IMG/VR virus record: IMGVR_UViG_3300037247_000690
Location: 1 to 25,524 of that record
Origin: a virus
Length of the DNA stretch: 25,524 nucleotides
Strand: one strand, 5' to 3'
The notes beneath the pieces were generated by a model. The model was given only the letters and a program-made list of their open reading frames with translations. It did no database searches and had not been told where the DNA came from. Within the stretch, counting starts at the first letter, position 1, and each line of letters begins with the position of its first letter. The position numbers and the translations under genes were made by a program. Positions 5,569 through 7,901 of this stretch are shown here, one piece after another.

Positions 5569-6350
5569 CCAAGCAGAGCTGGTATCGGATCGCCGCAAAA
5601 AAGGGCGACGACTCCCGCGCCGAGATTCTCATCTACGACGAGATCGGTCGCAACTTTTGGGGCAAAGGCATCGCGGCCGAGGACCTAGTCAAGGAGCTCT
5701 CGGCGCTCGACGTGAAGGCGATCGACGTCCGGATCAATAGCGTCGGCGGCCAGGTCTTCGAGGGCCTCGCGATCTTCAACGCACTCGATCGACACCCGGC
5801 GACGGTCACGACGCACGTCGACGGGATGGCAGCCTCGATCGCCTCGATCGTCGCGCTCGCCGGTGACGAGGTCCGGATCGCGGAGAACGCCTTCATGATG
5901 ATCCACAACCCGCACGGGATCGAGATGGGCGACGCGAACGCGATGCGGAAGATGGCCGACATCCTCGACACGCTCGCCGGTTCGCTCGCCGACACCTACG
6001 TCGCGAAGACCGGGAAGTCCGAGAAGGTGATCCGCGCGATGATGGACGAGGAAACGTGGTTCAACGCCGAGGAGGCCCTCGAGGTGGGGATGGTCGACGA
6101 GGTCGACGAAGCGATGGACGTCGCCGCGTCCTTCGATCTCTCGAAGTTCCACAACGTGCGGCCCGACGTCCTCGAGCGTGCGGCCGAGAAGGTGCGGCCG
6201 ATGGGGAAGGTGGTCGTCGAGGCGGACCTCACGGCGAGGCTCGAGAAGGTCGCCGACGAACTCGAGGAGCTCGCCGACAACGCGGAGCAAGCGGAGCTCG
6301 TCCAGCTCGCGGCCGAGGCCGAGGAGACTCTCGCCCGCACGCTTCTGTGA
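5565..6350 (+). CDS. ClpP-like prohead maturation protease
   Basis: The real start is the ATG at 5565, with GGAGG at 5554-5558, giving 261 aa. The frame is open much further upstream, but only through shadow sequence. The core is a ClpP/crotonase-fold serine protease: RINSVGGQVFEGLAIFNAL (57-74), nucleophile Ser91 in DGMAASIAS, and His114 in MMIHNPHG. The third acidic residue is probably near MDEETWFNAEEA (160-171). The C-terminus (about 215-261) is a charged helix (LEKVADELEELADNAEQAEL) that may aid assembly as a scaffold-like tail, which is inference. In HK97-type phages this enzyme trims the capsid protein and itself during head maturation. It overlaps the portal stop. Confidence 0.93.
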   Translation: MTKQSWYRIAAKKGDDSRAEILIYDEIGRNFWGKGIAAEDLVKELSALDVKAIDVRINSVGGQVFEGLAIFNALDRHPATVTTHVDGMAASIASIVALAGDEVRIAENAFMMIHNPHGIEMGDANAMRKMADILDTLAGSLADTYVAKTGKSEKVIRAMMDEETWFNAEEALEVGMVDEVDEAMDVAASFDLSKFHNVRPDVLERAAEKVRPMGKVVVEADLTARLEKVADELEELADNAEQAELVQLAAEAEETLARTLL

Positions 6351-6550
6351 TCGAAGTCCGGTGCGGTGAGTGCGGGCATTGGGTCGGTGAATCGCCGACC
6401 GAGCTCGTCCTGGTCGAGGTCGTAGAGCGGGGTGAGGAGTCGACCGTCGCCCCTCCTCGCGACCTCCGGCGTTGCCCGAGCTGCCGCCGGGTCAACGTCT
6501 TCGTTGCGCGCGCATCTCTTGACGGGACGCTCACCGCTCCGGTAAAGTAG
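6347..6550 (+). CDS. Small zinc-ribbon protein between protease and capsid
   Basis: A 67-aa protein starts at GTG 6347, overlapping the protease TGA (GTGA). Longer upstream starts would lie inside the protease gene and are less likely. The sequence has two CxxC pairs, C6xxC9 (CGECG) and C43xxC46 (CPSCRR), which form a standard zinc-ribbon arrangement. The residues between them are acidic. It has no recognisable ribosome-binding site and would depend on coupling. Position suggests a link to head assembly or to control of the capsid gene, but nothing in the sequence proves this. Confidence 0.6.
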   Translation: MIEVRCGECGHWVGESPTELVLVEVVERGEESTVAPPRDLRRCPSCRRVNVFVARASLDGTLTAPVK

Positions 6551-6579
6551 GGCGTCCAGCTCTTCACCGACGGCCGACG

Positions 6580-6610
6580 TTGGGCCCTCCTACGGCGAAG
6601 CTGCTAGTAT
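6580..6610 (+). promoter_or_regulatory. Possible promoter inside the capsid leader
   Basis: TGCTAGTAT at 6602-6610 looks like an extended -10 element (TGn plus TAGTAT, four of six matches to TATAAT). A poor -35 candidate, TTGGGC (6580-6585), lies 19 bases upstream. A start would be expected near 6617, leaving a leader of about 20 bases with the capsid ribosome-binding site. It is one of few AT-rich patches in this GC-rich stretch. The match could be chance, and the host sigma factor is unknown. Confidence 0.3.
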
Positions 6611-6634
6611 CGACAAACCCATGTAGGAGGGTCT
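6582..6634 (+). promoter_or_regulatory. Inverted repeat that covers the capsid ribosome-binding site
   Basis: CCCTCCTAC (6585-6593) is the exact reverse complement of GTAGGAGGG (6623-6631). G-U and G-C pairs can lengthen the stem to 6582-6593 with 6623-6634. The loop is 29 bases. The 3' arm contains AGGAGGG, the ribosome-binding site for the major capsid gene at 6639, so in read-through RNA this site would be base-paired. There is no U-tract after it, so it is unlikely to be a terminator. Function as a translational switch is inferred. Confidence 0.6.
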
Positions 6635-6638
6635 TTAG

Positions 6639-7901
6639 ATGGCACCGAGCGCGAACCTAGTAGCCAAGCGGAAAGAGCTCGAAGAGAAGCGGACCGGCCT
6701 CGCGAACGTCTTCAAGGCGGCTGGCGAAGCTGGCGAAGGCGGCCTCGACTTCTCCGCGAAGCCCGTCCTCGAGATGCTCGGCGCCGCCGACAGTATGGAC
6801 GCCGTCCTCAAGGCCCGCGCGCTGAATACGGAGATCGACAAGATCTACGATTCGGCGCAGGAGATGGCCGACCTCGAGGAGATCGACGAGAAACTCGACC
6901 GGATGGCCGGGGATCTCAAGAATCCGGACAAGCCGCGCCACGTCGACCCAACGGCCAGGGCTGGCCCATGGGGGATCGGCGACCTGATCGTCGGCTCCGA
7001 CGTCTTCAAGGCGTACGCGGAGAACGGTCCATCGAAGGGCGAGGTCGAAGGGTATAGCCTACGTGATCTCAAGGCGACGCTCTTCGAGACGTCGTCCGGG
7101 TGGGCGCCGGAATCGGTGAGGAGCGGTCGCATCGTCGAAGCCGTGACGCGCCCGATCCAGGTTCTCGACATCATCCCGTCGGGTCCGACCGACGAGGCGG
7201 CCTACGTCTACCTCGAGGAGACGCTCCGCACGCACTCGGGCGTCGAGATGGTCGAGGGCGGGACGTACGCCGAAGATGCTTACGAGCTCACGGACCGTGC
7301 CGCGACCGTCCGGAAGATCGGAACCTCGATTCCCGTGACGGACGAGCAGCTCGAGGACGTCGCCGGGATCCAGTCCTATCTGAACAACCGGCTCACGTTC
7401 GGGCTTCGCCAGCGGTTCGACGGGCAAGTCCTCACGGGCGACGGCACTCCGCCGAACATCGAGGGGATCCTCAATCATGGCGGGATCCAGACGCAGGCGA
7501 GGGGCGGCGATCCGACGCCCGACGCGATCCACAAGGCGATGACGAAGTGCCGGGTCACTGGCCGGTCCTTCCCGCAAAACATCGTGATGCACCCGAACGA
7601 TTGGGAGTCGATCCGGCTGCTCCGTACGGCGGACGGGATCTATATTTGGGGCTCGCCGTCCGAGGCCGGGGAGGCTCGGATATGGGGGCTCCCGGTCGTC
7701 CAGTCCGACGCGCAGACCGAGAACACCGCGCTCGTCGGGGACTTCACCTTCTGCCAGATCTTCGAGCGTCGCGGGATCGACGTACAGGTCGGCTTCACCG
7801 GGACGCAGTTCATGGAAGGCAAGCGGACGATCCGTGCCGACTTCCGGGTCGCGTTCGCGATCTTCCGCGGCTCCGCCTTCTGCACCGTGACGGGCATCTA
7901 G
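6639..7901 (+). CDS. Major capsid protein, HK97 fold
   Basis: This 420-aa protein follows the protease. Residues 1-105 are helical and highly charged (AKRKELEEKRTGLANVF; EEIDEKLDRMAGDL), matching the delta/scaffold domain that HK97-type proteases remove. The HK97 core starts about 120 and includes PESVRSGRIVEAVTRPIQVLDIIPSG-like strands (about 154-180), the segment KIGTSIPVTDEQLEDV (about 226-241), FGLRQRFDGQVLTGDG (about 251-266), FPQNIVMHPNDWE (about 308-320) and a C-terminal end IRADFRVAFAIFRGSAF. The Shine-Dalgarno AGGAGGG (6625-6631) is very strong but lies in a hairpin arm. The 88 bases before the gene form the longest intergenic gap of the head module. Confidence 0.95.
   Translation: MAPSANLVAKRKELEEKRTGLANVFKAAGEAGEGGLDFSAKPVLEMLGAADSMDAVLKARALNTEIDKIYDSAQEMADLEEIDEKLDRMAGDLKNPDKPRHVDPTARAGPWGIGDLIVGSDVFKAYAENGPSKGEVEGYSLRDLKATLFETSSGWAPESVRSGRIVEAVTRPIQVLDIIPSGPTDEAAYVYLEETLRTHSGVEMVEGGTYAEDAYELTDRAATVRKIGTSIPVTDEQLEDVAGIQSYLNNRLTFGLRQRFDGQVLTGDGTPPNIEGILNHGGIQTQARGGDPTPDAIHKAMTKCRVTGRSFPQNIVMHPNDWESIRLLRTADGIYIWGSPSEAGEARIWGLPVVQSDAQTENTALVGDFTFCQIFERRGIDVQVGFTGTQFMEGKRTIRADFRVAFAIFRGSAFCTVTGI

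Follow-up and report, generated by a model that had tools for sequence, protein, structure and literature searches.

In the virus record analysed here (the window, 25,524 bases, with terminase, portal, ClpP-like protease and HK97-fold capsid genes and further phage genes downstream), the leader of the major capsid gene forms a hairpin that masks the Shine-Dalgarno (SD) sequence of that gene, and we propose, with a probability of roughly 0.55, that this lock is opened in trans, most likely by a small zinc-ribbon protein encoded just upstream and acting in a Com-like manner. The hairpin looks like an undescribed timing mechanism for capsid production. The fold, the masking of the SD and its coevolution, the co-occurrence of gene and promoter, and the alternative pairings in relatives have all been computed. 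In the window, the zinc-ribbon ORF sits between the protease and capsid genes and leaves an 88-nt leader from its end to the capsid ATG, and the features are as follows.

6347-6550, plus strand: 67-aa zinc-ribbon ORF (C-x2-C-x33-C-x2-C), with a GTG start codon that overlaps the stop codon of the ClpP-like prohead protease gene; candidate trans-acting regulator
6519-6548, plus strand: sigma-70-like promoter TTGACG-18-TAAAGT, 9/12 consensus match, with a predicted RNA start near 6555
6567-6583, plus strand: small upstream hairpin CCGACG/CGTTGG of the predicted fold, in competition with the two outermost pairs of the SD stem
6582-6593, plus strand: 5' arm GGGCCCTCCTAC, read from the sequence, which aligns with the start of the conserved leader box of relatives
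6602-6610, plus strand: extended -10-like TGCTAGTAT in the hairpin loop, non-conserved and probably not functional
6623-6634, plus strand: 3' arm GTAGGAGGGTCT, which carries the capsid SD GGAGGG (6626-6631)
6639-7901, plus strand: HK97-fold major capsid protein gene, 420 aa (Pfam Phage_capsid, 4.4e-40; PHROG major head protein)

The original prediction held that CCCTCCTAC (6585-6593) and GTAGGAGGG (6623-6631) are perfect complements, that the stem lengthens to 12 bp, and that its 3' arm is the SD of the capsid gene, and each of these statements is borne out by the sequence. The nine perfect base pairs are continued by G6584-U6632, G6583-C6633 and G6582-U6634, so that 6582-6593 pairs with 6623-6634, and the GGAGGG motif lies 7 nt before the capsid ATG (6639-6641). 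On folding of the RNA, the SD stem is present in both the MFE and the centroid structure, with pair probabilities of 0.95-1.0 for the inner ten pairs and of 0.47 and 0.64 for the outer two, and the duplex between box and SD has an energy of -23.9 kcal/mol. The overall fold of the 101-nt region around the hairpin is no stabler than that of shuffled sequences (z -0.44), so the signal lies in the placement of the stem. A perfect stem of at least 9 bp on the capsid SD arises in 0.46% of shuffled versions of the upstream leader, the stem found here is the longest at any of the 31 starts inspected in the window (the runner-up has 7 bp), and opening the SD costs 14.3 kcal/mol, as opposed to 7.3 kcal/mol in leader shuffles, of which it exceeds 99.3% (p = 0.007). 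A minimal ATG-TAG frame (6621-6626) also spans the beginning of the 3' arm, at a distance of 12 nt from the capsid ATG, and is probably due to chance.

By itself, and across about 30 genes, the window hairpin is unusual only to a moderate degree. It could be a functionless complement that a strong SD has met by chance in GC-rich DNA, in line with a 9-bp stem being expected in about 0.5% of such leaders, or about 0.14 times per window, and with the lack of any global fold excess. The first capsid relatives to be recovered were viral contigs of at most 44% identity and cultured phages of at most about 46%, and the hairpin is not shared by any of the examined leaders of these first relatives (~41-46% capsid identity). 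A degenerate scan by capsid alignment was needed for relatives at 60% identity, and a second such scan enlarged the set, leaving 122 capsid loci with a usable start after removal of redundancy, among which 61 have leaders of at least 60 nt and 50 have gaps of less than 30 nt (the tight loci). Capsid starts in these relatives were picked by SD strength and position.

In this set, the mean cost of opening the SD is 10.7 kcal/mol for leaders of at least 60 nt versus 6.7 kcal/mol for the tight loci, and the masking exceeds that of dinucleotide shuffles of the upstream segment in the long leaders (Fisher 7e-7) as opposed to the tight set (0.67). Alignment of the 22 leaders that follow a zinc gene reveals a box, GGnCCcttyGACGG, to which the window 5' arm GGGCCCTCCTACGG aligns. 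Pairing was assessed with RNAduplex energies, in which segments of each leader were paired with one another and with segments swapped among loci. The middle segment pairs with its own SD at -17.8 kcal/mol compared with -13.6 kcal/mol for swapped segments, a difference reached in none of 20,000 permutations (p < 5e-5), and this specificity persists with fixed, unpicked segments and with the window removed; in the tight-gap loci, no such effect is found (p 0.46). In the window and in two relatives (L305 and L299), the box itself serves as the 5' arm of the SD hairpin, and compensatory change, which had been named as a check on the hairpin, is seen in L305, where the box-SD hairpin is kept with different bases (box GGACCCTTTG, SD arm CAGAGGGTCC). 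This retention, together with the coevolution of leader and SD when the window is left out, makes a chance origin very improbable, and the hairpin becomes convincing, as far as comparison of sequences can make it so, through this comparative evidence. The earlier claim that the capsid ribosome-binding site is masked is thus well supported, as the SD is paired in the fold and the masking recurs and coevolves in related phages.

An 8-bp SD stem in another relative (L012) was judged to be due to chance, its 5' arm lying inside the protease coding sequence. A search of viral contigs with the exact hairpin pattern returned 17 stretches, mostly terminator-like palindromes, none of which coincides with a capsid SD. 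In large virus contigs (L091, L093, L097 and L103, some above 200 kb), the exact CCCTCCTAC/GTAGGAGGG palindrome recurs as a hairpin flanked by TTTAT, which is probably a terminator unrelated to the capsid-leader lock. Neither the window nor the related loci that were scanned give an Rfam match at gathering score.

A profile search of all the capsid loci collected places the zinc gene in 22 loci after removal of redundancy, the window among them, all metagenomic. In these loci, it is always on the same strand as the capsid gene and ends 85-178 nt before the capsid start. It is found in none of the 50 capsid loci that have no leader (gap below 30 nt), and it is single-copy in all 21 sister records. 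All 17 zinc-protein sequences compared keep the four cysteines, and AlphaFold2 predicts a small beta fold with confidence (pLDDT 89). Against the Pfam Com family (PF10122), the window protein gives no hit, and 3 of 17 relatives give one below the cut-off (best E 0.01). When the zinc profile is compared with four Com proteins by hhalign, the two align over 37 columns that cover both Cys pairs (probability 90, E 1.6e-6), while against Mu Com alone the alignment spans 12 columns and the Cys spacing differs. This likeness may reflect homology with Com, but zinc knuckles can also resemble each other by convergence. An initial scan of viral contigs with the zinc protein gave no confirmed match, four queries against 50,697 phage records gave no match, and sequence and fold searches of the PDB returned nothing informative. 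More distant relatives (L004:1602, L005:1622, L008:1601, L010:1121 and L013:813) have other small ORFs with two CxxC motifs 5' of the capsid gene, and some of these are Com-like (YRCPxCGRLLFK).

Long leaders without the zinc gene also have masked SDs, with a weaker own-SD pairing effect (cognate versus permuted, p 0.003), which indicates that such locks do not strictly require the zinc protein. This finding speaks for a lock that works without a dedicated protein, in which temperature, ions, ribosome availability or RNase processing would tune capsid translation and the zinc protein would be an unrelated morphogenesis factor. We consider this unlikely, as every zinc gene found lies immediately before such a leader and the additional hairpin described below (H1) occurs only together with the zinc gene. 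Translational coupling from the zinc ORF was also considered and set aside, since its stop lies 32 nt before the 5' arm, which we infer is too distant for a terminating ribosome to melt the stem.

The best promoter-like site found by consensus scan is that at 6519-6548 (9/12), with the reservation that consensus promoter rules may not hold in its host. A TTGAC-16/19-TANNNT element within 220 nt of the capsid start is present in 13 of the 22 zinc-gene loci. Among the 39 other long leaders it occurs in 2, and the 50 tight loci all lack it; the background rate is 2%. This site overlaps the end of the zinc gene, and TTGAC falls in different phases of the zinc reading frame in different loci, so its conservation is at the level of the DNA and is not explained by protein coding. 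RNA that starts near 6555 contains both arms, and the main transcript should therefore carry the whole hairpin. A GACAAC..CGGCC element is also conserved before the box in five leaders (L197, L211, L270, L297 and L323), just after the promoter-like site, where the leader RNA would have its 5' end, and it is possibly a protein site.

The original prediction also placed a promoter in the hairpin loop, whose short transcripts would lack the 5' arm and be open for translation while long operon RNAs would be closed. Such a system has been described for T4 gene e, where late promoters lie inside the SD-masking structure, and the pairing of the SD in a leader hairpin is shared with T4 gene e (lysozyme), soc and I-TevI (PMC3014915). 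The sequence element itself is there, as TGCTAGTAT is present at 6602-6610 and extended -10-like sites are scarce in the window (8 on the plus strand of 25.5 kb, compared with 2.5 expected); its role as a promoter is what fails to find support. The loop hexamers agree with the consensus at no more than 3/6 and 4/6 positions, their spacing is 19 nt, and an extended -10 is missing from the equivalent segment in all 21 relatives with the same gene order. Moreover, the stronger, conserved promoter-like site lies 5' of the hairpin, so that, as opposed to the T4 masked sites, RNAs made from it carry the full lock. By computation, a transcript that begins at 6555-6560 needs about 8 kcal/mol to open the SD and one that begins at 6611-6618 needs 3.6-4.6 kcal/mol, and in RNA without the 5' arm, ACCC/GGGT would still pair over the edge of the SD. 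Control of the T4 gene e type therefore appears distinctly unlikely here, though some short transcripts may be made, and the part of the prediction that relied on such control is not supported.

The reading that we favour is that of a leader lock opened in trans. In this system, the promoter over the end of the zinc gene would produce, from a start near 6555, an mRNA with the full capsid leader, in which the box (6582-6593) would pair with the capsid SD (6623-6634) and block initiation, so that the mRNA would be born closed. If so, as is most likely, some factor must open the leader, and the zinc-ribbon protein is the obvious candidate for its position, its exclusive co-occurrence and its resemblance to Com. 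Zinc-ribbon protein made from the upstream operon is predicted to bind the leader and free the SD, and bulk capsid synthesis would then begin only after this protein has accumulated. Three parts of this reading are inferred, namely the zinc protein as the ligand, its action as an activator and not as a repressor, and the role in timing.

The system most like this one is com-mom of phage Mu, in which Com binds a hairpin that adjoins the translation inhibition structure of the mom mRNA and activates translation (PMC6483171). In both cases, a small four-Cys zinc protein is encoded directly 5' of the controlled gene, and the start region of the target is held in an RNA hairpin, close to which a second one lies (in 19 relatives here) (PMC6483171); the two proteins may also be similar over both Cys pairs, as the profile comparison suggests. 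The two differ in that the target here is the major capsid gene as opposed to a DNA-modification gene, the C-x2-C pairs are separated by 33 or more residues as opposed to 16 in Com, and the zinc protein falls under the Pfam cut-off. In addition, the system described here has its own conserved promoter and terminator-like hairpin, and the window leader (6551-6638) lacks the CC(N)2-3GAG loop motif associated with Com.

In 19 of the 22 leaders, the box is followed by the H1 hairpin, with an outer stem of the GACGGCCA/TGGCCGTC type and an inner hairpin like GCGC-nACC-GCGC. In the H1 model, 92.5% of cells are paired, covariation is 0.433 compared with 0.175 (reached in 0 of 500 shuffles), and the stretch 3' of H1 is rich in T (0.54 versus 0.16 in the background). 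The H1 model gave no convincing match among leaders that lack the zinc gene, and in the window, L299 and L305 it found no copy. The 3' half of H1 pairs with the middle segment of its own leader (-22.1 versus -18.9 swapped, 0 of 20,000 permutations), and the 5' half of H1 shows no effect in the swap test with either the middle segment or the SD. Three mutually exclusive pairings thus exist in the relatives, each of which is cognate-specific (p < 5e-5) with null controls, and a per-locus shuffle control agrees with these pairing tests (Fisher 4e-10). These three exclusive pairings suggest the layout of an attenuator, in which H1 and the SD lock form the closed state and the pairing of the H1 3' half with the middle segment forms the open one. 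As computed for the sister leaders, the closed state is far stabler than the open alternative.

Attenuators of transcription or translation with 1:2, 2:3 and 3:4-type pairings include trp, pyr and the riboswitches. The 19 relatives share with these systems the three exclusive pairings, a hairpin with a U-tract and an SD sequestor, and differ from them in having no leader peptide or metabolite site, the ligand perhaps being the phage zinc protein. In most relatives, the third pairing could disrupt the terminator as well as the SD lock, so that a single event could free transcription and translation together. On this basis, we tentatively suggest a plausible wider scheme, an undescribed phage RNA switch in which a Com-like zinc protein flips a three-way leader (terminator, anti-terminator and SD sequestor) and thereby switches on both elongation into and translation of the capsid gene, with the window representing a translation-only form. 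The window differs from known attenuators, and from the 19 leaders, in having the SD sequestor without the terminator-like hairpin; judged by its sequence, it is a reduced version of the leader system with the SD-masking hairpin alone, as are L299 and L305, which have likewise retained the SD lock alone. The window switch may therefore be degenerate. The U-rich tract after H1 and the competing, anti-terminator-like pairing of H1 would also fit a zinc protein that is an antiterminator or transcription attenuator factor, for which the SD hairpin would be a secondary or passive lock; this is again unlikely, given that the window lacks H1 yet retains the SD lock, and that the SD pairing is itself strongly selected.

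Our searches of the open-access literature found no published description of such a capsid-leader system, whose components are of known kinds and whose combination on a capsid gene appears to be new. Hundreds of copies of the capsid protein are needed, and their synthesis has to be well timed and matched in amount to portal and protease; the means by which small uncultured tailed phages lift capsid above its operon neighbours are generally assumed rather than known. The leaders described here offer a concrete candidate lock, in which promoter, SD-masking leader and putative protein key are conserved together. If the proposed role of the zinc protein is true, Com-type translational control would reach from DNA modification to virion assembly, and a first handle would be gained on a phage zinc-ribbon gene family without annotated function. 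Such compact leaders may also be usable as orthogonal switches.

Hairpins of other kinds have been noted before capsid genes as well. In the Sinorhizobium phages StopSmel and Aussie and their relatives (L082:2760-2995, L084:2760-2995, L083 and L244), a CCCGCGCnGACGCGGGC-type hairpin, not present in Rfam, lies some 70-90 nt ahead of the capsid start. A second class of leader, which lacks the zinc gene (L236:2070-2165, L267:2885-2980, L315:1345-1440, L335 and L269), carries a CCGGAACG..CGTTCCGG or GTCCGGGGCG hairpin and is probably another leader regulator; in L236 and L267, the SD is locked by TCTCCAC/GTGGAGA.
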